The notes beneath the pieces were generated by a model. That model saw nothing but the letters and a program-made list of their open reading frames with translations, was not told where the DNA came from and did no database searches. A stretch of 64,000 nucleotides of DNA from Pseudomonadota bacterium (GTDB lineage Bacteria > Pseudomonadota > Gammaproteobacteria > Xanthomonadales > SZUA-36): NCBI GenBank assembly GCA_015222805.1, contig JADFVZ010000020.1, positions 24,301 to 88,300 on the forward strand, read 5' to 3'. The position numbers and the translations under genes are program-made. Below, in pieces: positions 16,992 to 37,417 of the stretch; position 1 is the stretch's first letter; every line of letters begins with the position of its first letter.

Positions 16992-16996
16992 TTCAT

Positions 16997-17857
16997 ATGC
17001 TGAATTCCCGTCTAATTTTATTACTCTGTTTAGTCATTATTGGCACGGCTGCCTGCAGTAATCGCTGGGCAGCACCTGTTGAAGAACGGGCAGTAGGCGG
17101 GGAAACATCGAAGCATCCACTGGGGAATACCCAAGCTGCTATCTATACTGTAAAACGGGGAGATTCCTTATACACGATCGGTTTTCGTTATGGCCTCGAT
17201 TATCATAGTATTGCTGACTGGAACCGGATCACAAAGCCTTTCACTATCTATCCGGGACAAAAACTGCATTTGCAACCGGGGCAAAAGCCGTTCAGCAAAC
17301 CGGCAACAGTAAAAACCCAACCGTTAAAACCAGGCTCAACTACAAAAAGTACAACAAAGGTGGCTGCTAAACCGGTCGCAGCGACAACTTCAAAAACGGC
17401 AAGCACAAAAACCCCGGTTAAAACCTCAAGCAAAACGCCTCCCAAGTCGATTGATAAAAGCTCGAGCACTACATCGAGCCGCAGTAGTGTACGCTGGCAA
17501 TGGCCGACCAACGGCACCATTATTGAAACCTACCTTGCAGGTGACCCTACCCGTAGCGGTCTTGATATAGCTGGCAAGGAAGGGCAGGCTATCAGGGCGG
17601 CAGCCAGTGGCTCGGTGGTATACAGCGGCAATGGCCTGCTTGGCTATGGCGAACTGATAATTATCAAACACGATGACCGTTTTCTTTCAGCCTATGCGCA
17701 TAACCGGGTGCGTTTGGTTACCGAAGGTGAGAGTATTCGTGCCGGTCAGAAAATCGCTGAGATGGGGCGCGGTGAAAGTGGTCGGATTAAGTTGCACTTT
17801 GAAATCCGTGCCAATGGTAAGCCGGTAAATCCACGCCAGTATCTTCCCCGGCGATAG
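16997..17857 (+). CDS. nlpD: Murein hydrolase activator NlpD-like lipoprotein (LysM + M23)
   Basis: Lipobox GTAAC; LysM YTVKRGDSLYTIGFRYGLDYHSIADWN; degenerate M23 domain SGLDIAGKEGQAIRAAASGSVVYSG...LHFEIRANGKPVNPRQYLP. Confidence 0.88.
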   Translation: MLNSRLILLLCLVIIGTAACSNRWAAPVEERAVGGETSKHPLGNTQAAIYTVKRGDSLYTIGFRYGLDYHSIADWNRITKPFTIYPGQKLHLQPGQKPFSKPATVKTQPLKPGSTTKSTTKVAAKPVAATTSKTASTKTPVKTSSKTPPKSIDKSSSTTSSRSSVRWQWPTNGTIIETYLAGDPTRSGLDIAGKEGQAIRAAASGSVVYSGNGLLGYGELIIIKHDDRFLSAYAHNRVRLVTEGESIRAGQKIAEMGRGESGRIKLHFEIRANGKPVNPRQYLPRR

Positions 17858-18110
17858 TCAAAATATTCAGCAATTCATAACCGCCCCGTAGTTTCTTGCG
17901 AGAGTATTGCAGTCAACTAGCCGACACTCTAATTAATTAAAATATTGCAGTTTCATTTAAGATCGGGTAGCGTATGATTTCTGATCCAAACCAGCGTGTT
18001 GAGAATGGTGCTTGAATGTTAATATTATTCGAGTAAGGATTAGTAAAATAGTTATAGCCAGTAATAAAATTAATTATAAAAACATTTAACCGTGGGAGAA
18101 GCTAATAATC

Positions 18111-20414: not shown

Positions 20415-20463
20415 GACTATCTCAGGTCAGTTGTAACAACTGGATTATTGACCTTGTACTAGG

Positions 20464-20496
20464 CAAAGCCGGGATATATTCCCGGCTTTGTCCTTT
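20464..20496 (+). terminator. Rho-independent terminator after the TonB receptor
   Basis: CAAAGCCGGGA-tatat-TCCCGGCTTTG then TCCTTTT. Confidence 0.8.
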
Positions 20497-20613
20497 TGTA
20501 TCTGTAAAAGAATGGACCGACTGTGGCGGCAATTACCTAGATCCCCGTAAAGTGACTTATAACCCTTCAATCTCAGATTACTATATCCGTATTAGTCTCT
20601 ATATCCAGAAAGC

Positions 20614-20627
20614 TTGACCTTGATCAA
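20614..20627 (+). promoter_or_regulatory. Putative FNR/Anr-type binding site
   Basis: TTGAC-CTTG-ATCAA, 9/10 match to TTGATNNNNATCAA; centred about 42 bp upstream of the start site inferred from TATAAT at 20651. Confidence 0.6.
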
Positions 20628-20650
20628 CTGCCTTACATACATTAAGACAA

Positions 20651-20656
20651 TATAAT
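20651..20656 (+). promoter_or_regulatory. Putative -10 element of the Mrp/Mbx-like operon promoter
   Basis: Perfect TATAAT about 54 bp upstream of the first start codon. Confidence 0.5.
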
Positions 20657-20709
20657 ATACGCGGTTTCAACCTGAAGGAATATCCTTCACAAAAACAAAG
20701 GCCAGAATT

Positions 20710-21156
20710 GTGAAATCAGTTGAAGAAATCCTTGATTATGCCATTGCTCGTGAACAACAAGCAGTTGATTTTTATACGAAACTGTCAAATATGGCACCCG
20801 GCATCCAGTTACAGCAGCTAATGCGTGATTATGCCGCCGAAGAACAGCGCCATAAAGATAAGCTGCTGGCAGTCAAAACGGACGGGGCGCTGGACAACGC
20901 GCATAAACAGCCTCTTGACCTGAAGATGGCTGATTACCTGGTTGATGTTGAAGAAACCCCTGAAATGACCTATCAGGATGCGCTAATTATTGCGATGAAA
21001 CGTGAACAGGTCGCTTTCCTGTTGTATACAGACCTCGCAGAAAAGGTTGAATCCCCCGAGCTGAAATCGCTGTTTGAAGCACTCGCCAGGGAAGAAGCCT
21101 CACACAAAAACTATTTCGAGTCCGAGTATGATGACAAAATCTACACAGACAATTAA
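20710..21156 (+). CDS. Ferritin-like/rubrerythrin-domain diiron protein
   Basis: GTG start; two E..ExxH helix pairs: REQQAVDFY/EEQRH and REQVAFLLY/EEASH. Confidence 0.85.
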   Translation: MKSVEEILDYAIAREQQAVDFYTKLSNMAPGIQLQQLMRDYAAEEQRHKDKLLAVKTDGALDNAHKQPLDLKMADYLVDVEETPEMTYQDALIIAMKREQVAFLLYTDLAEKVESPELKSLFEALAREEASHKNYFESEYDDKIYTDN

Positions 21157-21655
21157 ATCAGCAAAAGGCAGGGTGACGATAAGCCTTTTTGTCAGCCTGT
21201 TTGCTATCTGGTTGATGCTTAACTCCACACTCGCCTGGCAGGTTTGGGTGCTTGGGCTGGTACTGGCGATCGCCGGAGCTGTTGCGTTTAAGGATATTGC
21301 AACAGCTTATTCAGGTATTCGCTTTAGTCCAAAATCACTCATTTACTACGTTGCATACCTTGGCCTGTTCCTGAAAGAACTGGTTATCGCAAACCTGAAT
21401 GTTGCGTGGTTGGTGCTAAAGCCTGACCCGAATCTTCAGCCTGCCATTATTCAGGTGAAAACTGATTTAAAAACGGCTGTAGGCCGGCTGGCTTTGGCAA
21501 ACTCAATCACTTTGACCCCGGGAACTCTGGTGGTGGAAATCAAAGATGATTCCTTATTCATTCACTGTATCGACGTCAGCGAGGCCAACCCGGCCGATGA
21601 TGTTCGCGAAAGTGTGGCTCATTTTGAAAAATACCTGAAGGTGGTGTATGGCTGA
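21128..21655 (+). CDS. mnhE: Mrp/Mnh-type antiporter subunit E (MbhA-like)
   Basis: MnhE pattern IWLMLNSTL...LGLFLKELVIANLNVAWLVLKP...ALANSITLTPGTLVVEI; overlaps upstream gene by 29 bp. Confidence 0.88.
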   Translation: MMTKSTQTIKSAKGRVTISLFVSLFAIWLMLNSTLAWQVWVLGLVLAIAGAVAFKDIATAYSGIRFSPKSLIYYVAYLGLFLKELVIANLNVAWLVLKPDPNLQPAIIQVKTDLKTAVGRLALANSITLTPGTLVVEIKDDSLFIHCIDVSEANPADDVRESVAHFEKYLKVVYG

Positions 21656-21908
21656 TACCATCCTAAATCTAGCAATGTTTATCATCATGGTGGCTATTTC
21701 ACTGGGTATCTATCGACTGGTCAAAGGCCCGTCGGTCGTCGACCGGGTGATCGCAGTCGACTTGTTGACCCTGATTTCCATAGCCCTGATCGCGCTGATT
21801 GCGCATATCAGTTCACGTTTTATCTATATTGATGTGGCGCTGGTTTATGGACTGCTGAGTTTCCTCAGTGTGCTCGCAGTGGCACGCTATCTTGAGCGGG
21901 GATTATAA
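21648..21908 (+). CDS. mnhF: Mrp/Mnh-type antiporter subunit F (MbhB-like)
   Basis: GIYRLVKGPSVVDRVIAVDLL...YIDVALVYGLLSFLSVLAVARYLE. Confidence 0.9.
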   Translation: MADTILNLAMFIIMVAISLGIYRLVKGPSVVDRVIAVDLLTLISIALIALIAHISSRFIYIDVALVYGLLSFLSVLAVARYLERGL

Positions 21909-21910
21909 CC

Positions 21911-22168
21911 ATGTTGACATTTTTAACCCTGCTGCTTTGTATCGGTATTTTAATTAGTGCGCTACTGGCAACCTATCTAAGGAGTATGGTTGCTGCCATA
22001 GTCAGCGCAGGCCTTGCTGGTCTGTTTGCCTCAGTCACCTATGTGATTCTTGCAGCACCGGATGTGGCGATGACAGAAGCGGCTATCGGCAGTGGGATTA
22101 CCACGGTTGTGTTCCTCTTTGCCCTGAGCAAGACTCGTAGTAAACCCGGGAGTAAAGCCAATGACTGA
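21911..22168 (+). CDS. DUF4040/MbhD-like subunit (MrpA C-terminal module)
   Basis: SMVAAIVSAGLAGLFASVTYVILAAPDVAMTEAAIGSGITTVVFLFAL. Confidence 0.85.
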   Translation: MLTFLTLLLCIGILISALLATYLRSMVAAIVSAGLAGLFASVTYVILAAPDVAMTEAAIGSGITTVVFLFALSKTRSKPGSKAND

Positions 22169-22544
22169 ATTAATTGGCAGCCTGGTTATCCTGCTGGGCG
22201 CAATCTTTTTACTGCTGGCCAGTATCGGTGTTGTGCGCATGCCCGACAGTTATAACCGCATCCAGACCGGAACCAAGGCGACAACCCTGGGTTTGATCCT
22301 GGTATTAACCGGTATTGCAATTTACCATCCCGGCTGGACCTGGAAACTGGTCATACTTATTTACTTTGTGCTGATCAGCAACCCCGCATCATCGCATGCG
22401 TTGGCACGAGCGGCCCACCGCCTGGGTATTTTCAAAACCGATACTACTGTGATCGATCATTTGGAAGAATTTGAAACTGTGGCTGAAACAGAAATTGACA
22501 CTGATGCTGGCGACTCTTCCGGCACTGAGCAGGAGCAGTCATAA
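22161..22544 (+). CDS. mnhG: Mrp/Mnh-type antiporter subunit G (MbhC-like)
   Basis: LGAIFLLLASIGVVRMPDSYNRIQTGTKATTLG...FVLISNPASSHALARAAH. Confidence 0.9.
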   Translation: MTELIGSLVILLGAIFLLLASIGVVRMPDSYNRIQTGTKATTLGLILVLTGIAIYHPGWTWKLVILIYFVLISNPASSHALARAAHRLGIFKTDTTVIDHLEEFETVAETEIDTDAGDSSGTEQEQS

Positions 22545-23227
22545 TGTTAAAAAGACTATTTATGCTTATCGCCCTGGTCCTCATTGCTATCCTGTTTTTC
22601 GATGTTGCCAGTAACTTCACCGAACGCAGTGAATTAAGCGGTATTTCCCAATACTACGTAGAGCAGGGTGCAGAAGAACTGGGCGCTGCCAACCTGGTAA
22701 CTTCGGTTGTGGTTACTTACCGCGGACTGGATACCCTGGGTGAAGTTACGGTGCTATTCATCTCAGCGGCTGGCGCTTCACTATTATTGCGCCGGCGTCG
22801 TAACACCAACAAAAAGCTTGTTGTTGAAGAATCGTCAGAAATTGTGCAAACAACCCTCAGTATTATGTTTCCTATCATCATGCTGTTTGGTGTTTACATC
22901 TTTATTAATGGCCACCTGACCCCCGGTGGCGGTTTTCAGGGCGGTGCGGTTGTCGCTTCTGCCTTGCTATTCTTCATGCTGGCCCGGCCCAATGATTCCA
23001 TCAGCCATAAGTTATTAATGAAGATCGAATCCCTGTCCGGCTTCACCTATGTGGTGCTGGGGGTGCTGGGTGTCATCCTGGCCGGTGGTTTTCTCGATAA
23101 CCGGGTACTTGGACTGGGTGAATTCGGTTCACTCTTCAGTGCCGGCCTGATCCCGCTGATTTATATCCTGGTGGGCCTGAAAGTTGGTTCAGAACTCGGC
23201 AGCCTATTACAGAAGTTCAGGGAGTAG
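22544..23227 (+). CDS. MbhE-like domain fused to MrpB/MbhF
   Basis: N-terminus LVTSVVVTYRGLDTLGEVTVLFISAAGASLLL (MbhE-like), then MrpB IMFPIIMLFGVYIFINGHLTPGGGFQGGAVVASALL. Confidence 0.85.
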   Translation: MLKRLFMLIALVLIAILFFDVASNFTERSELSGISQYYVEQGAEELGAANLVTSVVVTYRGLDTLGEVTVLFISAAGASLLLRRRRNTNKKLVVEESSEIVQTTLSIMFPIIMLFGVYIFINGHLTPGGGFQGGAVVASALLFFMLARPNDSISHKLLMKIESLSGFTYVVLGVLGVILAGGFLDNRVLGLGEFGSLFSAGLIPLIYILVGLKVGSELGSLLQKFRE

Positions 23228-23236
23228 GGAATAACT

Positions 23237-23602
23237 ATGTTTGAATTTAATCTACCCCTGGCAAATATTGTCCTGGTAACCGGGTTTTTACTTATCCTGA
23301 GTGGCTTGTGGGCGATGTTTATCCATAAAAATATCATTCGCATGATTATTGGTTTCTCCTTAATGGATACCGGCATCCACATGATTATGGTTGCGCTGGG
23401 TTATATCACCGGCGGTACGGCCCCGATTTTTGATGATGCAGTCGATGGCATGCAAATGGTCGACCCGGTTCCCTCCGCGCTGGTACTGACGGCAATCGTG
23501 ATTGGATTAGGTGTGACTGCGGTCATGCTCTCCTATGCGGTCAAAATCCACCAGGCTAAAAATTCCCTCTCTATTGACGATTGTGCAGAACAGAAATGGT
23601 AA
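23237..23602 (+). CDS. mnhC: Mrp/Mnh-type antiporter subunit C (NuoK-like, MbhG-like)
   Basis: NIVLVTGFLLILSGLWAMFIHKNIIRMIIGFSLMDTGIHMIMVALGY...DPVPSALVLTAIVIGLGVTAVMLSYAVKI. Confidence 0.88.
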   Translation: MFEFNLPLANIVLVTGFLLILSGLWAMFIHKNIIRMIIGFSLMDTGIHMIMVALGYITGGTAPIFDDAVDGMQMVDPVPSALVLTAIVIGLGVTAVMLSYAVKIHQAKNSLSIDDCAEQKW

Positions 23603-26600
23603 CTGAACTCCTGAGTCCGCTGAATATCATTATTATTGCGCTGGGCGCAGGCTTTCTGCTGCCCCTGATCCATGCCAGGTCCCCGCGCTTTGCCGGGCAG
23701 GTAATGTTTGCAAGTTTATTGTATTTTGTGATTATCAGCGCCTATCACTTTTATACTTTGATCGGCGGCGCACCAGCCGTTGAAATTATTACTGCCGGCA
23801 TCCAGCCGCCATTTGCTATCAACCTGCGCTTTGGCCTGGCTGAAGCCTTTGTTTTACTAGCTGTCAACACGGCTGCCCTGTTCGGTGCCAGGTATATGTT
23901 TGATGAGCTTAGAGAACATGCTTCGGCAATGATCCTGTTTATTGTCTGGATCATGGGTATCAACGGCATGGTGATGACACGTGACCTGTTCAACCTGTTT
24001 ATTTTTGTTGAAATCACTGCGGTCAGCAGTTTCGTGCTGGTTGCCATGCGTGCTAATTCGATTGCGCTTTCAGCCGGCTTTAAATATGTCATTGCAGGTA
24101 CTATGGCTTCCGGATTCCTGTTGCTGGGTACCATGTTGTTGTACTACCAGACTGGTACCTTAAATATTGATGACCTGATCATTCATCAGGAAATGATTAC
24201 CGGCCCCTTCGGCACGGCGGCATTAATGCTGGTGCTGGGTGCCATCCTGGTTGAGCTCAAACCCTTCCCGGCCAATGGCTGGGGGCTGGATGTATACCAG
24301 GCAGCTCCTGCAGGTATTGCCGCGCTACTATCGGTTGGTGTTTCCGCCGCTTACCTGTTTGCACTGTATAAAATCCTGCCGTTGCTGACCTCATTTTTAC
24401 CTGTGATTGCAGCCACCGGTTTGCTGACTTTTGTGGCTTCAAACTTTATCGGTTTGCGCCAGTCAGACCCGCGGCGTCTACTTGGGTATTCATCCGTTGG
24501 CCAGCTTGGCTTAATGGTGACAGCATTAGCCCTGCTGACTAAATTCTCTTTAACAGAATATATTCCACTGGTTGTGGGCGGTCTGTTTATCAGTCATTTC
24601 CTTGCCAAAGCCGGCTTGTTCTGGCTGGCTGGAATCATCAAGGGTAGTGAACTTGGCGACTGGTCACAACTGCGCAGCAAACCTGTACTGATCATTGCCT
24701 TCCTGTTTTTGATCACCGCATTGGCCGGCCTGCCGCCATTCCCCACTTTCTGGGCGAAATGGCAGCTGGTAATGAGCCTGATGGAATACCAGCAACATGG
24801 CTGGGTATTCTTTATCCTGCTGGGATCGCTGCTGGAAGTGGTTTACCTGTTTCGTTGGTTTGGAAAAGCGGTTAGCAGTCAGTCTGATAAAGCGCTGGAT
24901 ATCTCGAGTAGTGGTAATCGGCAATGGCTGCCCGTGGTCTTGTTTGTTGGTTTGTTACTCGCTTGCGGGCAGGTAATGGCCAGCAGTTTTGACCTGCCGG
25001 TGATGGCTTTGCTGCCAGTTTACGCAGGTTTATTGCTGATGCTTATTGATGGCCTGGGTGAAAGGCTTAAACAGATTGCTTCCTTGCTGGTTATTATTGC
25101 CTATAGCGTCTATTTGATCCCTTCACTGGATGGTCTCAACTGGATTTTCGGCTTGATGCTGCTGCCGGGTTCCATCCTGATACTGATAGCATCTACTTAC
25201 CAGCAGGGCACTGCAAGACCCGGATTTTACCCCCTGTTTGTGATGCTGGTACTGTCATTGGGTACTTTGCTTGCGGCAGAAACCATGCTGGGCTTCTTCC
25301 TCGCCTGGGAGCTGATGACTGTCAGCTCATACCTGTTGGTGAGCCTGGGTAAAAAAGCCACCCGGCCATCCCTGGTTTACCTGGTCTTTTCCATCGCCGG
25401 CGCCTTTTTGATCCTGTTTGCTTTTGCGCTAATTTATGCACAAACCGGTTCCATGCAGCTTTCAGCTATTGGTCAGGCGGGTATTGTTTCCAATTGGCCG
25501 TTTATCCTGCTGCTTTCAGGCTTCTTTATCAAGATGGGTGGACTGGGCGTGCATGTCTGGCTGCCAGATGCTTATGCAGAATGTGATGATGACTTTACCG
25601 CGATGATGTCATCGGTAGTCAGTAAAGCCGGTGTGTTTGGACTGTTTGTCGTTGGTACACAGATGACCGCACAGTTGAACGACATGGATACCATCCTTAC
25701 CGTCGTTGGCTGGGTTGGGCTGATCATGGCACTGGCCGGTGCGATCATGGCGGCCATGAGTGAAGACATTAAACACCTGCTGGCTTATTCAAGTATTGGC
25801 CAGCTTGGTTATATAGTTACTACGTTCGCTATAGCCAACCATACCGGTTGGGTTGCAGCTATGTACCTGGCAGTTAACCACCTGTTGTATAAGGGCCTTA
25901 TATTCCTCGCTATTGCCGGTGTACTTTACCGGGTTAAAACCCGTTATATGTACCAGATGGGCGGTCTGATAAAAAATATGCCCATCAGTTTTATTTCAGT
26001 ATTGATTGGTATTATCACTATCTCCGGTGTACCGCCCTTACTGGGTTTTGGCGGCAAATGGCTGCTCTACAATGCTTTACTTGAGCGGGGCTGGTATCTG
26101 CAGGCTGGGCTGGCATTTTTCGCCAGTGCGGTGGCTTTCCTCTACCTGTTCAAACTGATCCATACCATTTTCCTGGGGCAGCGCAAGAGCGAACACGAGC
26201 ATGTCAAAGAAGCCCCTCTGGCCCTGTTGATTCCACAGATTACCTTTATGGTACTGATAATGGCCTTCTCGATGTTCCCGAACATCCTGATCCAGCCGCT
26301 TTCTGATGCTGTAGCTCCGTTCATGGCCTCAACCTTTACCTGGGAAGGCTACCTGTTGATCACTGAAAATGGTTACTGGAATGGCTTCCTGGTGATGAAT
26401 ATTGTAGGTGTCCTGTTTATGGCACCGGCAATCCTGCTGTGGCTGGTTTCGAAGAAGATGAAAGTACAGAAAGTGAAACAGTTCAATATTGTGTTCGCGG
26501 CGGAAAGGCCCTTTACCCCGGCGACTACACATTATGCGTATAACTTCTATGCGTTCTATGACAAAGCCATTGGCTTTTTAACCCGGCCGGATGCAACTCG

Positions 26601-26739
26601 CTTCTGGAATGGGGTCTCCGAATGGGGGCATACCGTCGGTGCTTCGCTGCGCAGGTTCTATACCGGTAACGGACAGACCTATGCCGGCTTAATTCTGTTT
26701 TATATCGGCGTAATGTACCTCGCCGTGAGGACACTGTAA
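23596..26739 (+). CDS. Double MrpD/NuoN-like proton-conducting subunit (H-H' fusion)
   Basis: About 1047 aa; two proton_antipo_M-like repeats: first half with VEITAVSSFVLVAMRANSIALSAGFKYVIAGTMAS/ELKPFPANGWGLDVYQAAPAG, second half with WELMTVSSYLLVSLG/KMGGLGVHVWLPDAYAECDDDFTAMMSSVVSKAGVFG. Confidence 0.88.
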   Translation: MVTELLSPLNIIIIALGAGFLLPLIHARSPRFAGQVMFASLLYFVIISAYHFYTLIGGAPAVEIITAGIQPPFAINLRFGLAEAFVLLAVNTAALFGARYMFDELREHASAMILFIVWIMGINGMVMTRDLFNLFIFVEITAVSSFVLVAMRANSIALSAGFKYVIAGTMASGFLLLGTMLLYYQTGTLNIDDLIIHQEMITGPFGTAALMLVLGAILVELKPFPANGWGLDVYQAAPAGIAALLSVGVSAAYLFALYKILPLLTSFLPVIAATGLLTFVASNFIGLRQSDPRRLLGYSSVGQLGLMVTALALLTKFSLTEYIPLVVGGLFISHFLAKAGLFWLAGIIKGSELGDWSQLRSKPVLIIAFLFLITALAGLPPFPTFWAKWQLVMSLMEYQQHGWVFFILLGSLLEVVYLFRWFGKAVSSQSDKALDISSSGNRQWLPVVLFVGLLLACGQVMASSFDLPVMALLPVYAGLLLMLIDGLGERLKQIASLLVIIAYSVYLIPSLDGLNWIFGLMLLPGSILILIASTYQQGTARPGFYPLFVMLVLSLGTLLAAETMLGFFLAWELMTVSSYLLVSLGKKATRPSLVYLVFSIAGAFLILFAFALIYAQTGSMQLSAIGQAGIVSNWPFILLLSGFFIKMGGLGVHVWLPDAYAECDDDFTAMMSSVVSKAGVFGLFVVGTQMTAQLNDMDTILTVVGWVGLIMALAGAIMAAMSEDIKHLLAYSSIGQLGYIVTTFAIANHTGWVAAMYLAVNHLLYKGLIFLAIAGVLYRVKTRYMYQMGGLIKNMPISFISVLIGIITISGVPPLLGFGGKWLLYNALLERGWYLQAGLAFFASAVAFLYLFKLIHTIFLGQRKSEHEHVKEAPLALLIPQITFMVLIMAFSMFPNILIQPLSDAVAPFMASTFTWEGYLLITENGYWNGFLVMNIVGVLFMAPAILLWLVSKKMKVQKVKQFNIVFAAERPFTPATTHYAYNFYAFYDKAIGFLTRPDATRFWNGVSEWGHTVGASLRRFYTGNGQTYAGLILFYIGVMYLAVRTL

Positions 26740-27659
26740 TGAACTGGGCTCTGAGTATTTTTTATTACATCGTCACAGTGTTGGTGGTGCTAGTTTACGG
26801 ATTGCTGCTTTACGCTTTTATCGCCAAAACCATGGCGCGGGTACAGGGTCGGATCGGCATTCCGATTTACCAGCCTTTCCTGGATATTATCCAGACTTAC
26901 GGCAGGCGTACAGCGGTTACCCATGGTTATATGTTTGACCTCGGTCCGGTCTTCCGCTTAACCGGTGGACTTGGCACATTGGCGTTTATACCGGTGATCT
27001 ACGGTAGTGAAATATTCGGCAATTTCCATTTTGCCGGTGACCTGTTGCTGGTCATGTACTTTATCTTTTTCGGCCAGCTGGGCATGGCGCTGGGTGCCGG
27101 TGAGAGTGGCCATCCCTATGCACCCATGGGTATTGCCCGTGGACTGGCGCAGATGACCGCTTTTGAAGTACCGTTTGCACTGGCAGTAATTGCGGTATTC
27201 ATGCAGTACGAAACCGCTTCGATTACGGAGATTGTTGCCGCCCAACAGGGCTCTATTTACAACTGGACCCTGTTTACCAACCCGTTTGCAGTGCTGGCAG
27301 CGATGTTTGCCTTCCTCGGCATGTCGATGTATCCGCCGTTTGACCTGGTGACTGCGCCCAACGAGATTCCGATTGGTCCGCCAACCGAATATCACAGCGC
27401 CTATCTGTCGTTACTGCAAACCAACCGTGCGATCTTTGCCGGTGCCAAACTGGTACTGTTTATGAACCTGTTTTTCGGTGGTGCCACGAACTTACCCATC
27501 ATGGTGCTGAAAACCTGGGCTATCTATATGATCCCGGTTTTAATCGGCGTGGCTTTCCCGCGCTTTAAGGTAGAAAATTCCATCCGCTTCTTTTTAGGCG
27601 TGCCCACACTGGTAGGCATTATCGCAGTACTTTATATGCAGTACTGGGGAACAGTATGA
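26739..27659 (+). CDS. NuoH/MbhM-like membrane subunit
   Basis: ARVQGRIGIPIYQPFLDIIQTYGRR, ESGHPYAPMGIARGLAQMTAFEVPFALAVIAV. Confidence 0.92.
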   Translation: MNWALSIFYYIVTVLVVLVYGLLLYAFIAKTMARVQGRIGIPIYQPFLDIIQTYGRRTAVTHGYMFDLGPVFRLTGGLGTLAFIPVIYGSEIFGNFHFAGDLLLVMYFIFFGQLGMALGAGESGHPYAPMGIARGLAQMTAFEVPFALAVIAVFMQYETASITEIVAAQQGSIYNWTLFTNPFAVLAAMFAFLGMSMYPPFDLVTAPNEIPIGPPTEYHSAYLSLLQTNRAIFAGAKLVLFMNLFFGGATNLPIMVLKTWAIYMIPVLIGVAFPRFKVENSIRFFLGVPTLVGIIAVLYMQYWGTV

Positions 27660-28309
27660 ACAAACAAGATAAAAATCCTGGTAACAACAGGGAAAACCTG
27701 ATCAAGCTCGAAAATGCGGGCCTGACTGCGGAAGAACAGCAACTGTTCTGTGATGCAGTACCGGTACCGTATGAGCCTTACTCACTCGAATTTGTTGAGC
27801 GTTTCCACAACTGGATCCGCGCCAACTCACTCTGGGTGCTGGCTTTCGGAACCGGTTGTGGCGCGATCGAACTCAATCCGTTAATGACCTCGCGTTTTGA
27901 TGCCAATCGATTTGGGGTGATGATGCGGCCGACACCCCGACAGGCATCGGTATTAATTGTTGCCGGTTATTCATCGGTTAAAACACTAAAACGCATCATC
28001 CGTAGTTATGAACAGATGCAGGGTCCGAAGTTCGTTATCGGCCTGGGTATATGCACCATCAATGGCGGCATGTACTACGACAGCTACAACACCATTAATT
28101 GCCTGGACCGCTATATTCCTGTTGATTTATATATCACCGGCTGTATGCCGCGGCCAGAAGCCCTGCTGGCGGGTTTTATGGAGCTCAAGCGCAAAATTAA
28201 AGCAGGCGAATGTGACGGTGCCAATCGCTATGTAAAAGATTTCGACTGGTATAAAGCCAATCAGAAGAAAGTCATTAAAAAATGGGATATGCCGGATTAC
28301 AATTGGTGA
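27656..28309 (+). CDS. NuoB/MbhJ-like [4Fe-4S] subunit
   Basis: FGTGCGAIELN, MMRPTPRQASVLIVAG, FVIGLGICTINGGMY, PVDLYITGCMPRPEALL. Confidence 0.9.
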   Translation: MNKQDKNPGNNRENLIKLENAGLTAEEQQLFCDAVPVPYEPYSLEFVERFHNWIRANSLWVLAFGTGCGAIELNPLMTSRFDANRFGVMMRPTPRQASVLIVAGYSSVKTLKRIIRSYEQMQGPKFVIGLGICTINGGMYYDSYNTINCLDRYIPVDLYITGCMPRPEALLAGFMELKRKIKAGECDGANRYVKDFDWYKANQKKVIKKWDMPDYNW

Positions 28310-28314
28310 ACACT

Positions 28315-28857
28315 ATGTTTATGCAAGAATTATGTGAACGCATGACCCGGCAGTTTGACTGTGACCAGGTGATGCATCAAAAAGACGACTTAAGTTTCCT
28401 GCGGGTTGACAGGGACAGGCTCGAAAGTGCCCTGATGTACTTAAAAACCCATGAAGGTTTTGTACATCTCAGCTTTGTGACTGTAATCGACTACATAGAG
28501 GATGGTTTTTTCCGTCTCAACTATATGCTCTACAACTACGACAAAGCCACCAATATTGGCGTGCAGGTGGATATCACCCGGGAAAATCCCAGTATGCATT
28601 CCATTCACCACCTCTGGGCACAGGGATGGACCTATCAGCGCGAGTTGAAAGAAATGTACGGTATCGACTTCCCCGGTAGCCCCCGTGTTGATGAAGAATT
28701 TGTACTTGAAGGCTGGGATGGAATTCCACCCATGCTGCGTGAATTTGATACTGCCAAATTCTGTGAAGACCGCTTTGCCAAGCGCGACGGCAGGGAATCC
28801 CAGGACATTAAACAGACCATGCGCGACAATTTGTACCCCGAAAGAGGGGAGAGCTAA
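28315..28857 (+). CDS. NuoC/MbhK-like subunit
   Basis: NPSMHSIHHLWAQGWTYQRELKEMYGIDFPGSPRVDEEFVLEGWDGIPPMLREFD. Confidence 0.9.
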   Translation: MFMQELCERMTRQFDCDQVMHQKDDLSFLRVDRDRLESALMYLKTHEGFVHLSFVTVIDYIEDGFFRLNYMLYNYDKATNIGVQVDITRENPSMHSIHHLWAQGWTYQRELKEMYGIDFPGSPRVDEEFVLEGWDGIPPMLREFDTAKFCEDRFAKRDGRESQDIKQTMRDNLYPERGES

Positions 28858-28860
28858 GCT

Positions 28861-30003
28861 ATGTTTGATTTAAAACGCTACTCTGAAGCCGAACTGGAAA
28901 GCGGTAAGTTTACCAAGCTCTGGCACGGCCCCCAGCACCCGGGTATTACCGGTAACATGTCGCTCGAACTGACACTCTCCGGAGATGATGTGGTGGAGTG
29001 CAAAACCCATGTGGGTTACCTCCATCGCGGCTTTGAAAAGCTGATGGAACGGCGTACCTATATCCAGAATTTTCCGGTGGTTTGCCGGATTGCTGTACCG
29101 GAACCCACATTCAATGAATATATGTATGCGGCGGCGGTAGAAGAGTTGGCTGGCATTGAAGTGCCTGAGCGTGCCGAATGGCTGCGCTGCCTGAATCTCG
29201 AGATGATGCGTCTTGCCAGCTTCCTGATGTGGCTGGGTGGCGCTTGCGGTTCCTTCGGTATGAGCACGGTCTATCAATGGACTGTTACCCATCGCGATTA
29301 CATGCTGGATCTGTTTGAAGAAATGACGGGCGCTCGAATTTACCATATGTACATCTCCCCCGGCGGTGTGCGTGCGCCATTACCTGACGGTTTTAGCGAA
29401 CGCGCGCTGAGCGTAATGAATGGCATTGAAAAACTGCTGTATGAAATTGAAAGGGTTGCCCTGAATAACCATATCTTCAAAATGCGTTCCCAGGATCTGG
29501 GTATTATTGACCCGGAAATGGTTGATCCTTATGGAATCGTTGGTCCGAATGCACGCGCTTGCGGATTTAAACGGGATGTCAGGAAAGATGCCCCCTACCT
29601 GGTTTACGACCAGCTGGATTTTGAAGTGATTACTGCCGATAAATCCGATGCCTATACCCGTACATTGGTACGCTACCAGGAAATGCATCAATGTATTTCT
29701 TTGATTCGCCAGATGCTTGAACAGATGCCAACCAAAGGTTCGTTCCATGCCGACCTGCCGAATGTACTGCACTGGAAAATTCCTGCCGGACAGACCTATG
29801 TTAAATCTGAATGTACCCGCGGCGAGTACGGCTACTTCCTGGTATCCGACGGCAGCGAGTACCTGCGCCGGGTCACTATTCGCGGCCCCAGTTACACCCA
29901 CGCCATTGCGGTGATGGAAAAGCTGGTTGTGGGCGTCAATATTGCTGATGTCGCTGGTTTGATGGTATCACTGCATACCTATCCGCCAGAGATTGAACGT
30001 TAG
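28861..30003 (+). CDS. NuoD/MbhL-like large subunit lacking [NiFe] ligands
   Basis: HGPQHPGITGNMSLELTLSGDDVVECKTHVGYLHRGFEKLMERRTY, GIEVPERAEWLRCLNLEMMRLASFLMWLG; no CxxC pair at either end. Confidence 0.92.
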   Translation: MFDLKRYSEAELESGKFTKLWHGPQHPGITGNMSLELTLSGDDVVECKTHVGYLHRGFEKLMERRTYIQNFPVVCRIAVPEPTFNEYMYAAAVEELAGIEVPERAEWLRCLNLEMMRLASFLMWLGGACGSFGMSTVYQWTVTHRDYMLDLFEEMTGARIYHMYISPGGVRAPLPDGFSERALSVMNGIEKLLYEIERVALNNHIFKMRSQDLGIIDPEMVDPYGIVGPNARACGFKRDVRKDAPYLVYDQLDFEVITADKSDAYTRTLVRYQEMHQCISLIRQMLEQMPTKGSFHADLPNVLHWKIPAGQTYVKSECTRGEYGYFLVSDGSEYLRRVTIRGPSYTHAIAVMEKLVVGVNIADVAGLMVSLHTYPPEIER

Positions 30004-30017
30004 TTTGGGATAAAGAA

Positions 30018-31790
30018 ATGAAACTGAAAGATCTAACATCTCCCTTTTATGTCTGGCAGCGGGCTTTCGAAAAGCCTTACACGCAGAGCAAGCCCACCCT
30101 GAATCGGGAAGGTGCACATGCCTATCGCGGATTCCATATCAATGACATAGAAAAATGTGTTGGCTGTGGTACCTGCGAAGAAATCTGCATGAACAACGCT
30201 ATTGATATGGTCGAAATTGCTGCTAAAGACAGTAAAAAAGGTGATAGTGGACTGGTTCCGCGTTTTGACTACGGACGTTGCTGCTGGTGTGCCTTGTGTG
30301 TGGATATTTGTACCACTGGCTCATTACGAATGAGTAATGAATATACCTGGGCCGCGGATGATCCGGACAGTTTCCGTTTTACCCCCGGAGTAGATGAGAC
30401 CAGCTGGCAGGATAGCGAACATGGCTATCGTCGCCACCCGGAGTACGACTTACTCAAGCTGGTGCGCCCTGAAATGGAAATGCTGTCACCTGATGAAGGT
30501 TTGAAATCCTTTGATGAAGTAGTCGCCGGTTATACTCATGAGCAGGCAGTAGTAGAAGCCGACCGCTGTATTGAATGCGAAATCTGTGTCGCCACCTGTC
30601 CTGCGAATATGGACATCCCCGGATATATACGTGCGGTACGTGAAGAGAATTTTGAAGAAGGCCTGCGTCTTCTTTATGACACCAATCCCTTCTCAGCTAC
30701 CTGTGGGCGTATCTGTACGCACCGTTGCGAAGACGACTGTACCATCAGTACCTTCGGTAAACCATTGGCAATTCGCTGGCTGAAACGTTATATCGTTGAT
30801 CAGGTTCCTGCTGAACGTTTTGCCGAAATATTGAATGATGAAATCACTGAAAACGGCCACCATGTTTCCATCGTGGGTGCAGGCCCTGGTGGTATGAGCG
30901 CGGCTTATTACCTGCGCAAGAAAGGCTATGGTGTTACTGTTTATGAGGCCGGCGCCAGTGGTGGTGGTATGTTGCGCTACGGCGTGCCGTCGTATCGCTT
31001 GCCGGACGACCAACTTGATAAAGATATCGATTACATCGTTTCCCTTGGGGTTGAGGTTAAGTACAACACCAAAATCGGTCATGATATTGAGTTCCAACAG
31101 TTGATGGATAAGAGTGATGCCATCTTTATCGCTACCGGCATGGACCAGCCATCCAGTATGCGCATCAAGGGTGAAGACCATCCGCGTGTTTTATCCGGGT
31201 TGACGGTATTGAATGATGTTGCCAGTCATAAAGACCCGGGCGTTGGTAAAAATGTTGCGGTTATCGGTGGTGGTAACGTTGCCATGGATGCGGCCCGCGT
31301 CTGTCGTCGCCTGGGTGCGGATGTAACCGTACTGTACCGTCGCCGCATCGTGGATATGCCAGCCGATAAGGACGAGATTAAAGAAGCCCTGGAAGAAAAC
31401 TGCAACTTCGTATTGCAGGCGATTCCGGTACTGATAGAAGACGCAGAATCCAGTGACCAGGTAACCATTCAGTGGGGTGAAGCCGAGATGATAGCCGAAG
31501 ACGGCAAGCGACCACGGCCGGTATTACAGGAAGATCGTATGCATACCGACACCTATGACTCAATCATTTCAGCTATCGGCCAGTCCGGTGACTTCAGTTT
31601 CTTGCCACAGGAAATCTCCGATCAACTGAAACAGCACTGGGGTAAATTCGAAGTCGATCAGCGCCAGCGTACAGCGGTTGGCAAGATATTTATTGGCGGT
31701 GATATTGCCAATGATGTTGCCGATGCGATCAGTGCAATTGCCGATGGCAAAAATGCGGCAATAGGTATTGATGCATTTGTGAGCTCTTGA
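30018..31790 (+). CDS. NuoI-like 2x[4Fe-4S] ferredoxin fused to GltD/NfnB-like FAD/NAD(P)H oxidoreductase
   Basis: CVGCGTCEEICMNNAI and CCWCALCVDICTTGSL; CIECEICVATCP plus CGRICTHRCEDDC; VSIVGAGPGGMSAAYYLRKKGYGVTVYEA; VAVIGGGNVAMDAARVCRRLGA; IFIGGDIAN. Confidence 0.93.
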   Translation: MKLKDLTSPFYVWQRAFEKPYTQSKPTLNREGAHAYRGFHINDIEKCVGCGTCEEICMNNAIDMVEIAAKDSKKGDSGLVPRFDYGRCCWCALCVDICTTGSLRMSNEYTWAADDPDSFRFTPGVDETSWQDSEHGYRRHPEYDLLKLVRPEMEMLSPDEGLKSFDEVVAGYTHEQAVVEADRCIECEICVATCPANMDIPGYIRAVREENFEEGLRLLYDTNPFSATCGRICTHRCEDDCTISTFGKPLAIRWLKRYIVDQVPAERFAEILNDEITENGHHVSIVGAGPGGMSAAYYLRKKGYGVTVYEAGASGGGMLRYGVPSYRLPDDQLDKDIDYIVSLGVEVKYNTKIGHDIEFQQLMDKSDAIFIATGMDQPSSMRIKGEDHPRVLSGLTVLNDVASHKDPGVGKNVAVIGGGNVAMDAARVCRRLGADVTVLYRRRIVDMPADKDEIKEALEENCNFVLQAIPVLIEDAESSDQVTIQWGEAEMIAEDGKRPRPVLQEDRMHTDTYDSIISAIGQSGDFSFLPQEISDQLKQHWGKFEVDQRQRTAVGKIFIGGDIANDVADAISAIADGKNAAIGIDAFVSS

Positions 31791-31816
31791 TAGATTTTGG
31801 CTTTATATAAATTAGA

Positions 31817-31846
31817 AATGCCGGCTCCTTCAGAGCCGGCATTTTT
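31817..31846 (+). terminator. Rho-independent terminator of the Mrp/Mbx-like operon
   Basis: AATGCCGGCTC-cttca-GAGCCGGCATT then TTTT. Confidence 0.85.
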
Positions 31847-31862
31847 TAAGCAGTATCGGTTA

Positions 31863-33635
31863 TTATTCACTAGCTCCCTGGAACGGATTCCAGTCTTTAT
31901 CTACTTCAATAATATTATTTTTAGCAGTATGAGATTCATATAACGCGATCATGCTTTCTAATTTCTCTGGGTTTTCTATTTCTAATGGGTGTGTTTCAGA
32001 TGGATCCGTTACTACATTATACAAGTGCCATTGGCCATCACCGAACATTCCAGTTCTTACTTTCATGGCTTTTAATTCCCCTTGCATAACATAACCATTT
32101 CCAAACAATTCAAATGCCCACCAGTCCTTTTCTGATCTTACGACTTCCGATGTTCCATCTAAAAATGGCTTCATGCTTATTCCGCTTGGAGGTACAATTT
32201 CCCTACCCTTGTATTCGGTCATAGGATGCTTAATATTTGCATATTCGAGAATAGTCATTGGGATATCTTTTGCATACGCAACAGCGTTAGATTTTTCACC
32301 TGAACGAGCGTATTTTTCATTAAATGCGCCAGGGGGAACCACCATCATTGGTACTCTAATCCCACCTTCACCAATAAACCATTTCCACCATTGCAGTCCA
32401 CCTGTTGCGGCATTTGCCCACGATGTGCCAATGACATTTTCTGAATTGGCTGTACCAATTGCCTCAAAAGAAGAATCAAATTGATTTTCAATCCATTTTG
32501 CCAGCTCTGGATTACCTGTTTTTGGATTGGTAGGCTCTAATCCTTCTGGTCCATTATCAGTTACATAGACAATCAATGTATTGTCTAGCTGACCAGATGC
32601 TTTAAGGTAATCTAAAATCTGACCTATTCTAGAATCTTGGTCTTCAATCATTGCAGCATAAGTCGCCATTATTTTTGCTTGTTTTTCTTTATCTTCTTGT
32701 GAGAGGCTTTCCCACTTTCTTGTTAGATTGTTAAATGGTGCTTCTGTTGCTTTGTGAGAGATTAACCCGTGTTCTTTGAGGCTCTCGTATCTAGCTTTCT
32801 TCAACCCTGCATACCCTAATTCCAGGTATTTAGGATAATATTTCATAATCAACTCTTCAGGAGCTTGAATAGGGAAATGCGCAGTTGTAAATGCCATATA
32901 CGCAAACCAGGGTTTATCTTTTTTAACCCCATCTTTTATAAACTCTAGCATTTGGTTTGTGTAGATTTCGCCAGAATATATTCCATCAGGCCTGTCGTAT
33001 GCTTCTCCGTTTAGTGTCCATTCTTCAACACGTTTTTTATTTAAGCCATCTGGATCGTGAAAATCGGGTGTCATGGCTAAATTATTCCAGTGATTTGAAC
33101 CTCCAGAATAAATACCAAACTCTTTGGTAAATCCAAATCCTAAAGGCCCTTTGCTTCCTGGTTTGTCACCGCCCAGGTGCCATTTTCCAACTTTGTAAAC
33201 TTCATAGCCTTCATCTTTCAATAATTCAGAAATAGTGACAGCATCATCAGTTAAGTAAGTTTCATATCCCTTCTTTCCCCTGGTTGGAGGATATACAGAA
33301 TAATCAAAAGCACCCAGGCCTACTTCGATACTATCATTTCCAGTAAAAAGCATTGACCTGGTAACAGAGCAAACGGGTGATACATGAAAGTTTGTAAAGC
33401 GGATGCCTGCATCAGCAAGTTTATTCATATTCGGAGTTTTAACTTCTGAGCCAAAAGCGCCAATGTCTCCAAAAGCAGTATCGTCACCAACCAGCAATAA
33501 AATATTTGGCTTCTTTGCTATTTCAGTTGAAGGTTGTTCCTGGTTGGGAGCTTGTGTGCTGCAAGCAGTTAAAAATATACTGATCACAGTAAAAATAAGG
33601 GTGGTAAAAAAATATGGTTTTCTCATGAGTTCCAT
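31863..33635 (-). CDS. Arylsulfatase-family (type I sulfatase-like) lipoprotein
   Basis: KPNILLLVGDDTAFGDIGAFGSEVKTPNMNKLADAGIRFTNFHVSPVCSVTRSMLFTGND; VYKVGKWHLGG; lipobox LTACS. Confidence 0.9.
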   Translation of the reverse strand: MELMRKPYFFTTLIFTVISIFLTACSTQAPNQEQPSTEIAKKPNILLLVGDDTAFGDIGAFGSEVKTPNMNKLADAGIRFTNFHVSPVCSVTRSMLFTGNDSIEVGLGAFDYSVYPPTRGKKGYETYLTDDAVTISELLKDEGYEVYKVGKWHLGGDKPGSKGPLGFGFTKEFGIYSGGSNHWNNLAMTPDFHDPDGLNKKRVEEWTLNGEAYDRPDGIYSGEIYTNQMLEFIKDGVKKDKPWFAYMAFTTAHFPIQAPEELIMKYYPKYLELGYAGLKKARYESLKEHGLISHKATEAPFNNLTRKWESLSQEDKEKQAKIMATYAAMIEDQDSRIGQILDYLKASGQLDNTLIVYVTDNGPEGLEPTNPKTGNPELAKWIENQFDSSFEAIGTANSENVIGTSWANAATGGLQWWKWFIGEGGIRVPMMVVPPGAFNEKYARSGEKSNAVAYAKDIPMTILEYANIKHPMTEYKGREIVPPSGISMKPFLDGTSEVVRSEKDWWAFELFGNGYVMQGELKAMKVRTGMFGDGQWHLYNVVTDPSETHPLEIENPEKLESMIALYESHTAKNNIIEVDKDWNPFQGASE

Positions 33636-33765
33636 CTTGTGTTATGAACTGATTAGCCGTGAAATTAAAGTCTATTCGTTGGCCCTAAGGTGTTACGACA
33701 TTAAACCAGAAGCTGAAATCATCTAAATGGTTAACTTCGCAGCATAATACATTACGCAATTTAGC

Positions 33766-33793
33766 CATGTAAAATGCATTGTAATGTTACATG
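33766..33793. promoter_or_regulatory. Inverted repeat between divergent sulfatase and LysR genes (candidate operator)
   Basis: CATGTAA-N14-TTACATG, perfect 7-bp arms, immediately upstream of the LysR start. Confidence 0.4.
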
Positions 33794-33811
33794 TGATACC
33801 TTAAATGCATT

Positions 33812-34756
33812 ATGACTACATTAACTCAATTAGCTCATGCAATTGCACTATATGAATACGGTAATTTCCGGCGGGCTGCAGAATCACAGCATATCAGTCA
33901 GCCAGCCTTTTCTCGAAGTATTCAAAAACTTGAGATATTACTAGAAGTAAAGTTATTTAATCGCCAACGAGGTGGCAGCATAACGCCGACAATATATGGT
34001 GAGTCATTATTGATTCGTGCAAAAACCATCTTTGGGGAGACTGATGAGTTAAAACGTGAAATTCAACTTCTTAAAAGTGTTGATACTGGTAATTTGTCTA
34101 TTGCTATCGGACCACATGCTGCAGAAACATCAGCTAATAAAGCCTTAGCCGAGCTAGCCAAATTACATCCAAATGTACAATATAAGACTATCGTTACTAG
34201 CTGGCGTGAGGTGACTGATCTTGTGTTATCTGGTGAAGTTGATATTGGGATCGCTGAGATTTCTATGGCGAAAGAGATTGATGAGGTAGAGGTAGAGCTA
34301 ATTGCTCAACATGATATGGTCTACTTCTGTCGAAAAGGCCATCCATTGTCACAATGCAACAAATTTTTAAAATCAGAGCTTAATAACTATCCTCTGGTAT
34401 CACTTCGGCTACCACCTCGTGCAAAAGATCTGATTTTAGGCCAGCATTCAATAGAAGCAAAATCAGGAGATGTAATTCCATCCATTGAGATAGATAACAT
34501 TAGTTCGGCGAGAGCGATTGTATCAGGGTGTGATGCTATTAGTATTGCTTCTCCTTTGCAATTAGAACCATGGCTTGCTAGTGGAGAGATACAAATTTTA
34601 CCTTGCGGTGATACTCAGCTTAAGTTGGGATATGGTTTTATTTTCTTACGGGATCGCATGTTATCGCCATCGACAGAATTGTATATGCAAAAGGTTAGAA
34701 CCCTTGAAACAGATTTGATGCAAAAAAATAAATTATTACTAGATAGATTTACATAA
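33812..34756 (+). CDS. LysR-family transcriptional regulator
   Basis: LAHAIALYEYGNFRRAAESQHISQPAFSRSIQKLEILLEVKLFNRQRGGSITPT wHTH; divergent from the sulfatase. Confidence 0.92.
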   Translation: MTTLTQLAHAIALYEYGNFRRAAESQHISQPAFSRSIQKLEILLEVKLFNRQRGGSITPTIYGESLLIRAKTIFGETDELKREIQLLKSVDTGNLSIAIGPHAAETSANKALAELAKLHPNVQYKTIVTSWREVTDLVLSGEVDIGIAEISMAKEIDEVEVELIAQHDMVYFCRKGHPLSQCNKFLKSELNNYPLVSLRLPPRAKDLILGQHSIEAKSGDVIPSIEIDNISSARAIVSGCDAISIASPLQLEPWLASGEIQILPCGDTQLKLGYGFIFLRDRMLSPSTELYMQKVRTLETDLMQKNKLLLDRFT

Positions 34757-34868
34757 TGTTGGGCCAAATCAGTCGATTTTAAGTAACGTTGCTTGTATTT
34801 CTGTCAGCAATCTTCAACTTCAACTCATGGCAAAAACGGGAGTGCTTCTGTCGAGTGCCTATCCTGCC

Positions 34869-35116
34869 TATTACAGGAAGACCGTATGCATACCGACACC
34901 TATGACTCAATCATTTCCGCCATTGGTCAGTCCGGTGACTTCAGCTTCCTGCCACAGGAAATCTCCGATTAACTGAAACAGCATTGGGGTAAATTCGAAG
35001 TCGATCAGCGCCAGCTTACAGCGGTTGGCAAGATATTTATTGGCGGTGATATTGCCAATGATGTTGCCGGTGGCAAAAATGCGGCAATAGGTATTGATGC
35101 ATTTGTGAATTCCTGA
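34869..35116 (+). pseudogene. Truncated, decayed copy of the 3' end of the ferredoxin-GltD-like gene
   Basis: Aligns with 31522..31790; contains GATCAA->GATTAA nonsense change and a 21-nt in-frame deletion; similarity continues into a decayed copy of the terminator to about 35167. Confidence 0.93.
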
Positions 35117-35167
35117 TAGATCTGGTCTTTTTCTAAAACTCGAAATGCCAGCCTCTTTAGTGCTGGT

Positions 35168-35596
35168 CTATTTACGTTGTGATAGACCATAAACTACCAT
35201 TGCACACCCAAATACCATTGTAAGGCCTACACTTACAAGGCCGAATGTTATTAATTGCTCTTGCCAGATTTCACCGTTGTAGCCCTTGCCTGCAATAGGT
35301 GTCATTTCACTAGTACCTAATATTGCTGCTAGCGTTATGAAAAACCAATTAGCAAAAGTACCGTACAGTATGAGCCAGAAAGCTATTTTCTCCAGCCTTG
35401 GGGAAAGCACAACATATGACCATGCTGCACCGAGGGCAATAAGGAAAGTGCCGTTCATCATACCTTCAAGATGGCTTGCCAGGCCCATTCGAGGGTTCAC
35501 AAACCCTGGAACAACAAATCCCGTAAATAAACCAAATAAAAAAAGGATTGCTCCAGCCGCGATCATCTTTCTTTGAGTAGCATTATTCATAGGCAT
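35168..35596 (-). CDS. Hydroxylaminobenzene mutase / styrene-oxide-isomerase-like membrane protein
   Basis: Four TM segments; GLFTGFVVPGFVNPRMGLASHLEGMMNGTFLIALGAAW. Confidence 0.65.
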   Translation of the reverse strand: MPMNNATQRKMIAAGAILFLFGLFTGFVVPGFVNPRMGLASHLEGMMNGTFLIALGAAWSYVVLSPRLEKIAFWLILYGTFANWFFITLAAILGTSEMTPIAGKGYNGEIWQEQLITFGLVSVGLTMVFGCAMVVYGLSQRK

Positions 35597-35609
35597 CTAA
35601 TAACCTTTG

Positions 35610-36146
35610 TTAAGTGGTGCGGCGAATCCGCGTTTGGTGGAGCCAGTTTTCGGGTGAAACCGACTTAAACGATTTGGTATGCATGCTCCTCACTGCAATA
35701 CGTTTGGAAATGTCCTTCAATCGCATTTTCTCCAGGTCCTCTTCTTGAATCTCTTCGGGGTCATTAGTCTTCCGGTATGGGCAATTTCCATCAACTAACA
35801 TTCTGAGACTAAAGAGGTATTCTTTCGCGATAGCCTGATACTCCTCATCCGAAGTCAGGATATCCACCGAGAGGGTCTCTGGACTTTTACCGGTAATTTT
35901 ATTAATGGCCTCAGATAATTCATTCTCCAACTGGTCGCGGCTCAAGCCCACAACGGAAAATCCGGGCATTTCTAATATCGTGATGGTTGCCTGGTTTTCG
36001 ATTTTAACTACATCTAAAATCCGATTCCCCCATTCTGAACAGTCTTTAAGAGCGCTTCTGACAACAATGTAACTACCCTCAGCGGCGGTTTGAGCCATAC
36101 CAATAGTTGGGCTGGAAATTAGCAAAATGTAGAGAATTATTTTCAT
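35610..36146 (-). CDS. Hypothetical secreted protein
   Basis: Signal peptide MKIILYILLISSPTIGMAQT; ORF could start further upstream at 36164. Confidence 0.5.
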   Translation of the reverse strand: MKIILYILLISSPTIGMAQTAAEGSYIVVRSALKDCSEWGNRILDVVKIENQATITILEMPGFSVVGLSRDQLENELSEAINKITGKSPETLSVDILTSDEEYQAIAKEYLFSLRMLVDGNCPYRKTNDPEEIQEEDLEKMRLKDISKRIAVRSMHTKSFKSVSPENWLHQTRIRRTT

Positions 36147-36233
36147 GCCGTATAACGCACACAATAAACGGCACAGAACTTCTGCATCCAGCGAGCAGGG
36201 GGAGCATATTTGATTGTCTGGTTAGGGTTGTGT

Positions 36234-36605
36234 TTAGAATGGGGCACAGGGTGTTCCTTGATGAAATTCCATTTGCCAACCACAATTATTTTTCTTCCAA
36301 ATAGAGCTACGAAGCGAATAATGGATGGTTTCTTTAGCTGGAAATTTTATTGTTGCCCTATATATGAGTTGAACAACATTTTCTTCCAGTTCACGCACCT
36401 CAAAACTGTTTGAAGTGAATTCTGGTGAGGTTTCACCTGGTATCCTTGCTAGAGCTTCAGCTTTGCCAAAGCTATCACCAGTACTTGTAAATTCTAAGAA
36501 ATTGTCAGAGAGCAAGTAGCTTAGCTCTGATTCTGACGATCTGATTTCAGGTTTTAAAAGGTATAGTTCCAGTTTTATTAGTTTATGTTCTAAATTTTTC
36601 TCCAT
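36234..36605 (-). CDS. DUF4440/NTF2-like protein
   Basis: LELYLLKPEIRSSESELSYLLSDNFLEFTSTGDSFGKAEAL...WKKNNCGWQMEFHQGTP. Confidence 0.75.
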   Translation of the reverse strand: MEKNLEHKLIKLELYLLKPEIRSSESELSYLLSDNFLEFTSTGDSFGKAEALARIPGETSPEFTSNSFEVRELEENVVQLIYRATIKFPAKETIHYSLRSSIWKKNNCGWQMEFHQGTPCAPF

Positions 36606-36976
36606 GAATTGATTGTAACCCTAACTTTGAATTAGGTGAAAATACCTGATTACCTGGGAAATATTCCATATATGCAGAGCCATTTAATACATCTTGTATT
36701 TAAGACTGTTGATTTGCAAGAGGATTTTTTGTTTTATGTGTTTTTCCTCTATATTTATCACTGCGATCCTGTTTGCTGTTCAAGAATGAATTCTGAGCCC
36801 AGTGAATATATTGGATGACGTATCATCTCAGTATTAGCTCACTTACCGGCATGTGTTAACGGGGCAATAGTGAATTATGCAGGATTATTCTTAATTGTTT
36901 GGTGCGGATTATTACTAAGTTGGTTAGTCTGTTTAAAGCTCTCAACAATTCTAAACAAAATAAGGCCTGATGGACC

Positions 36977-37417
36977 ATGAAGTTTATCCCACCATTTATG
37001 CATTTTATGTTTGCCGTTTTGACCACTTACTTGTTGGCTAGTATGGTCGGAACACAGTTGGTGCTGGCAGATATTTTGAGTTTTGGCCTTAGGGTTTCGT
37101 TGAGAGACAGGCTTCTCGCCACTGTTCACGATCTAGTTGGCCTGATGCCCGCTTTATTCCTGTTGATCACGGGAGCTTTCCTGGTTGCGTTCGTGGTCGC
37201 GGCTTTGTGTAGGCGGTTCCTGGGCGGCAAGCAAGACTGGTGGTATCTGGCTGCGGGTTTTACTTCGTTACCTGCCGCGTTGATGCTGATTAAATACTTT
37301 ATGGGCGCTACATTGTTTGCTGCAGCACGGACGAGTTTCGGTATGTTGCTTATTGCCCTTTGTGGCCTCGCTGGTGGTTGGGTATATACCCGCCTGTCTC
37401 AAAACAGGGGTGTTTAA
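36977..37417 (+). CDS. Hypothetical membrane protein
   Basis: About four hydrophobic segments; stop abuts the start of the next gene. Confidence 0.65.
   Translation: MKFIPPFMHFMFAVLTTYLLASMVGTQLVLADILSFGLRVSLRDRLLATVHDLVGLMPALFLLITGAFLVAFVVAALCRRFLGGKQDWWYLAAGFTSLPAALMLIKYFMGATLFAAARTSFGMLLIALCGLAGGWVYTRLSQNRGV

Follow-up and report, generated by a model that had tools for sequence, protein, structure and literature searches.

A displaced flavoprotein 3' end beside a sulfatase/LysR pair, best read as a recombination scar without an integrase

In Escherichia coli, insertion of prophage e14 in icd is associated with icdC, a fragment of 165 bp with 12 changes, the differences being mostly silent (PMC11148124). 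A related outcome has been modeled for T6SS effector and Rhs genes, where homology-facilitated illegitimate recombination allows incoming homology-anchored DNA to replace a 3' end while the old end stays downstream as an orphan (PMC5361080). The locus described here lies in a window of 64,000 nucleotides (the whole stretch of DNA that was analyzed; contig JADFVZ010000020.1 of a Pseudomonadota bacterium) and is a fresh example of this known kind of scar. As with icd and icdC, an intact gene is found upstream of an insert and a fragment of its 3' end beyond it, with mostly silent differences. As with the displaced T6SS or Rhs ends, a new 3' end appears to be in place with the old one left downstream. 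Unlike e14, which is a prophage with an integrase gene, the insert consists of two ordinary genes with no recombinase, and no att core was seen. The T6SS/Rhs cargo comprises effector and immunity genes under selection, whereas the cargo at this locus, a sulfatase and a regulator, has no relation to the adjoining operon, and the second join falls at a dispersed repeat. The arrangement is best explained by ordinary recombination that brought in DNA of a close relative, rather than by a new mobile element.

Table 1. Features of the locus, in positions of the window
Feature	Position	Strand	Remarks
Genome-particular block, ~19 kb	17858..36976		Flanking genes ~80 bp apart in two congeners (G001:C26, L075; G003:C140, L077)
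Operon: Mnh/Mrp-type antiporter subunits, Nuo H/B/C/D-like subunits, terminal FeS-flavoprotein	21074..31790	+	MBH/MBX-like membrane complex
Intact flavoprotein gene (590-aa FeS-flavoprotein)	30018..31790	+	Fer4_20 and Pyr_redox_2 domains; last operon gene; 3' end is copy 1
Copy 1 of repeat	31522..31839	+	3' end of intact flavoprotein gene: last 89 codons, stop, strong terminator hairpin
Sulfatase gene	31863..33635	-	PF00884, E 1.3e-46; 39% GC
LysR-type regulator gene	33812..34756	+	PF03466/PF00126; divergent from sulfatase
Copy of genus-wide dispersed repeat	34762..34865	+	86-nt core at 34781-34865; 3' terminus abuts copy 2; 5' extension possibly into last LysR codons
Copy 2 of repeat	34869..35166	+	Decayed, truncated 3' end of second flavoprotein gene version; weak terminator
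Three small same-orientation genes (142 aa; 184 aa; DUF4440)	35168..36605	-	Probable integron-type cassettes, judged from the attC-like site
attC-like site	35600..35684	-	Between first two small genes; 74% identical to repeat arrayed in family members
Second dispersed repeat	36622..36733	+	Also in G000:C118, G001:C41, G003:C90

The gene concerned closes a respiratory-type operon that is rare and recently gained by this bacterium. The operon is uncommon in the class sample and was found at the DNA level neither in the bacterial family nor in the genus. A similar gene set is present at L031, L137 (G629, where the contig start cuts the operon), L138 (G660), and L140 (G614). The closest flavoprotein homologs share 72% (G629) and 64% (G660) protein identity, and every plasmid match was below 60%. 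No genome with an undisturbed donor or recipient arrangement was found, the nearest flavoprotein homolog being the one at 72%, and this counts against a recombination scar. A second intact operon had been named with the original prediction as a conceivable source of the repeat; neither such a copy nor any other operon fragment occurs in the 2.9 Mb assembled for this draft genome (138 contigs, 86% complete). A rubrerythrin gene lies near the operon (20710-21156), and in G660 one is found directly 3' of the flavoprotein gene.

Local alignment of 31522-31839 with 34869-35166 gives 271 identities in 319 columns (85% including gaps), which bears out the direct repeat of flavoprotein 3' end, stop, and terminator first reported at 31522-31846 and 34869-35167. 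The intact copy is joined to the operon, as had been proposed, with copy 1 ending the 30018-31790 gene. Identity is far above chance, at 95% over the first 204 nt and ~95% in the coding part. Copy 2 is a broken pseudogene without the 5' part of the gene. A CAA to TAA change at the codon matching 31623 places a stop in frame, and a 21-bp deletion removes the residues DAISAIA, a stretch conserved among the closest homologs. The terminator of copy 2 is weak (-10.2 kcal/mol against -22.5 kcal/mol in copy 1). The stem that reads CCGGC/GCCGG in copy 1 reads CCAGC/GCTGG in copy 2; the changes are paired, and the base pairs are therefore preserved.

Between the copies, 13 of 83 compared codons differ and 9 of these 13 differences are synonymous, a small sample (n = 13 codons) that is the main statistical weakness of the test. 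When the same number of changes was placed neutrally in simulation, 23-29% were synonymous on average, and the observed share was reached in 0.025-0.17% of trials (P 0.00025-0.0017). These figures bear on duplication of the 3' end in place, by slippage or in tandem, with later insertion of the sulfatase and LysR genes between the copies. Such a history would leave what is seen in outline, two copies only, in the same orientation and close together, but a nonfunctional fragment should change regardless of codon position, and paired changes in a stem would be unexpected; it is considered very unlikely. The synonymous excess and the paired terminator changes instead indicate that most of the divergence arose while both ends worked, before copy 2 decayed, so copy 2 came from a second version of the gene and not from slippage or an in-place copy. 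Divergence as a functional gene before decay is the history that marks a displaced 3' end. Polarizing the differences by G629 and G660 showed no clear lean between the copies (identities 155 versus 151 and 147 versus 148), silent sites included.

The two genes recognized between the copies at the outset, a sulfatase and a LysR-type regulator, are supported by domain matches (PF00884; PF03466/PF00126). Both are AT-rich, as the check on composition proposed with them could show: GC is 39% and 38%, compared with 48-50% around them (49.5% in the flavoprotein gene and 48-49% in the flanks). A sulfatase/LysR pair is also found in the congener G001, beside SNF2/SWIM-type genes (named by eye from sequence) and without the operon or a flavoprotein fragment, so the two genes form an independent unit in the genus. 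The sulfatase homolog in this other context shows ~80% amino acid identity over the portion covered, and the LysR protein is 42% identical to the LysR at the equivalent position. In a search for the original home of the pair, no counterpart of the SWIM-type gene adjoining it in G001 turned up in this genome. Phages yielded no match to the insert.

Two origins had been suggested for the arrangement: an integrated element or recombination with a foreign segment. The latter, with a foreign or diverged segment, fits because the divergence is mostly synonymous, the terminator changes are paired, the insert is AT-rich, and a congener carries the sulfatase/LysR pair in the absence of the operon. In the case of the former, site-specific insertion of a small integrative element would have interrupted the flavoprotein gene and rebuilt its 3' end, as e14 did in icd. 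The outcome would be the same, with an element-borne end on the intact gene and a displaced 3' fragment carrying mostly silent changes (compare PMC11148124), and the first 49 bp of the copies do differ at a single base. This part of the suggestion is without positive support, since no recombinase and no tRNA was found at the locus, the ends of the surrounding block share no 9-mer, and a 7-base match between 31840-31874 and 34740-34880 is all that was detected at the proposed att cores (31846-31863 and 34860-34870). An att core lying within the gene copies themselves may have escaped this comparison. The absence of mobility genes had been remarked on from the start: only the sulfatase and LysR genes lie between the copies, with no integrase, transposase, excisionase, or other mobility gene. 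No second instance was found in relatives, and a site-specific element is regarded as highly improbable.

The junction that connects the LysR 3' end to the middle of the second flavoprotein sequence lies on a dispersed repeat. At its 3' terminus the repeat comes within 0-3 bases of the beginning of copy 2. On the 5' side, an extension runs up to the LysR stop and may take in the final LysR codons, a stretch over which the protein no longer follows its G001 homolog (judged by eye). The favored explanation, with a probability of about one half, is that the flavoprotein 3' end underwent homologous exchange with a related version of the operon that was linked to sulfatase/LysR, and that the second join lies at the dispersed repeat. 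It is favored because of the synonymous excess, the paired stem changes, the broken state of copy 2, the lack of a second operon, the independence of the sulfatase/LysR unit, and the position of the junction at a repeat terminus, and because the genes that come after the operon in distant homologs (G629, G660, L031) are unrelated and include no sulfatase/LysR. Incoming DNA from a close relative would have brought the sulfatase/LysR pair behind a flavoprotein 3' end and its terminator, with the crossover to the resident operon falling within the 3' end of the flavoprotein gene. That exchange would have given the upstream gene an intact 3' end, now copy 1, and displaced the other version downstream, where it became copy 2 and lost its function. 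The dispersed repeat probably supplied the second join, by homologous or element-mediated recombination. We infer the order of these events, which copy was resident, and the role of the repeat in the scar; the join of copy 2 at the repeat may also be a coincidence or reflect a later insertion.

The main rival to the recombination scar assumes that sulfatase/LysR was formerly followed by another complete, diverged operon, of which only copy 2 survives. The rest would have been lost by deletion, perhaps through recombination of the dispersed repeat next to LysR with a further repeat copy that had inserted in the second flavoprotein gene. This history accounts equally well for the mostly synonymous differences and the paired changes in the terminator, and a repeat at the point of deletion, flanked by LysR and by the middle of a flavoprotein gene, is what it would leave. 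It is nevertheless somewhat unlikely, given that the genome holds no other operon fragment and that two tandem operon copies, which it requires, were seen at none of the homologous loci examined. Joining of reads from a related strain into the contig at the repeats is a further alternative for a draft of this many contigs and this completeness, with a junction at a dispersed repeat. The longest exact run common to the two copies is 53 bp. The dispersed repeat at the junction has no counterpart elsewhere in this genome closer than 79% identity, so neither repeat should readily mislead an assembler, and an assembly error is very unlikely indeed.

Read as a recombination scar, the locus is by itself a modest case of genome rearrangement. 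It shows how exchange with relatives remodels the 3' border of a recently gained operon and leaves a legible scar, with no integrase involved. If the dispersed repeat did make the second join, the locus would also illustrate how a short repeat can guide exchange of this sort.

The scar sits within a larger block. Window genes at 16928-17857 and 36977-37417 are neighbors ~80 bp apart in two congeners (G001 and G003), so the ~19 kb between them is particular to this genome. An empty site, which the original prediction proposed looking for in relatives, therefore exists for this whole block (17858-36976); the genus and family lack the operon itself, so none of these relatives could display an empty site for the 3.3-kb insert alone. 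The block contains a TonB receptor, the rubrerythrin gene, the operon, the insert, copy 2, three small minus-strand genes, and a second dispersed repeat. No mobility gene or integrase was recognized within it, its ends show no att-like cores or terminal repeats, and the window has no Rfam match. Elsewhere in the window, the adjacent genes at 11901-12584 and 12716-13402 match each other's homologs in G001, apparently as an old tandem duplication.

The small genes to the right of copy 2, the first of which has its stop codon directly at the end of the copy (35168), are probably integron cassettes. This assignment follows from the attC-like site between the first two, which is homologous to a repeat arrayed in the family (23 matches in G028 and 20 in G031). 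A motif scan for attC in the window gave nothing above shuffled sequences, while the homology to the arrayed repeats is clear; a candidate second site at ~36155-36225 was seen by eye only. The same-orientation genes and the attC-like site recall CALINs, clusters of integron cassettes without an integrase. They differ from CALINs in having one clear attC-like site only and none after the last gene, and no integrase was recognized in the block. The integron-type integrase of this genome is borderline (G000:C120, 275 bits against a cut-off of 265) and lies outside the block, with no attC found nearby. The likeness to CALINs by itself leaves the direct repeat unexplained. Arrays of attC-like repeats resembling integron cassette arrays occur in this bacterial family on G028:C28 and several G031 contigs.

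The dispersed repeat at the copy 2 junction was retrieved in 35 distinct copies from four genomes of the genus; loci with the repeat include L065, L072, L073, L091, L102, L104, and L108. Its stuttering 3' flanks are the oddest feature seen and merit separate attention. In 20 of the 35 copies, the first six bases after the terminus recur within the next 64 bases, compared with 2 of 35 on the 5' side and ~1 expected from shuffles. In some copies the stuttered word, which is specific to the locus, is interspersed with segments from the 3' end of the repeat itself. The repeat could be small mobile DNA of an undescribed kind that, on inserting, generates tandem copies of short target words and of segments from its own 3' end, an activity that would have created the LysR/flavoprotein junction; this suggestion is distinctly unlikely. 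An origin of the REP/RAYT type was considered and is not supported: the window copy has a fold z-score of about -0.5 and no strong hairpin, and a repeat copy was near only 2 of 10 Y1_Tnp loci. The second dispersed repeat in the block (also at L066, L067, and L074) lies just upstream of minus-strand small genes both in the window and in L066, and near an attC-like site in L074.
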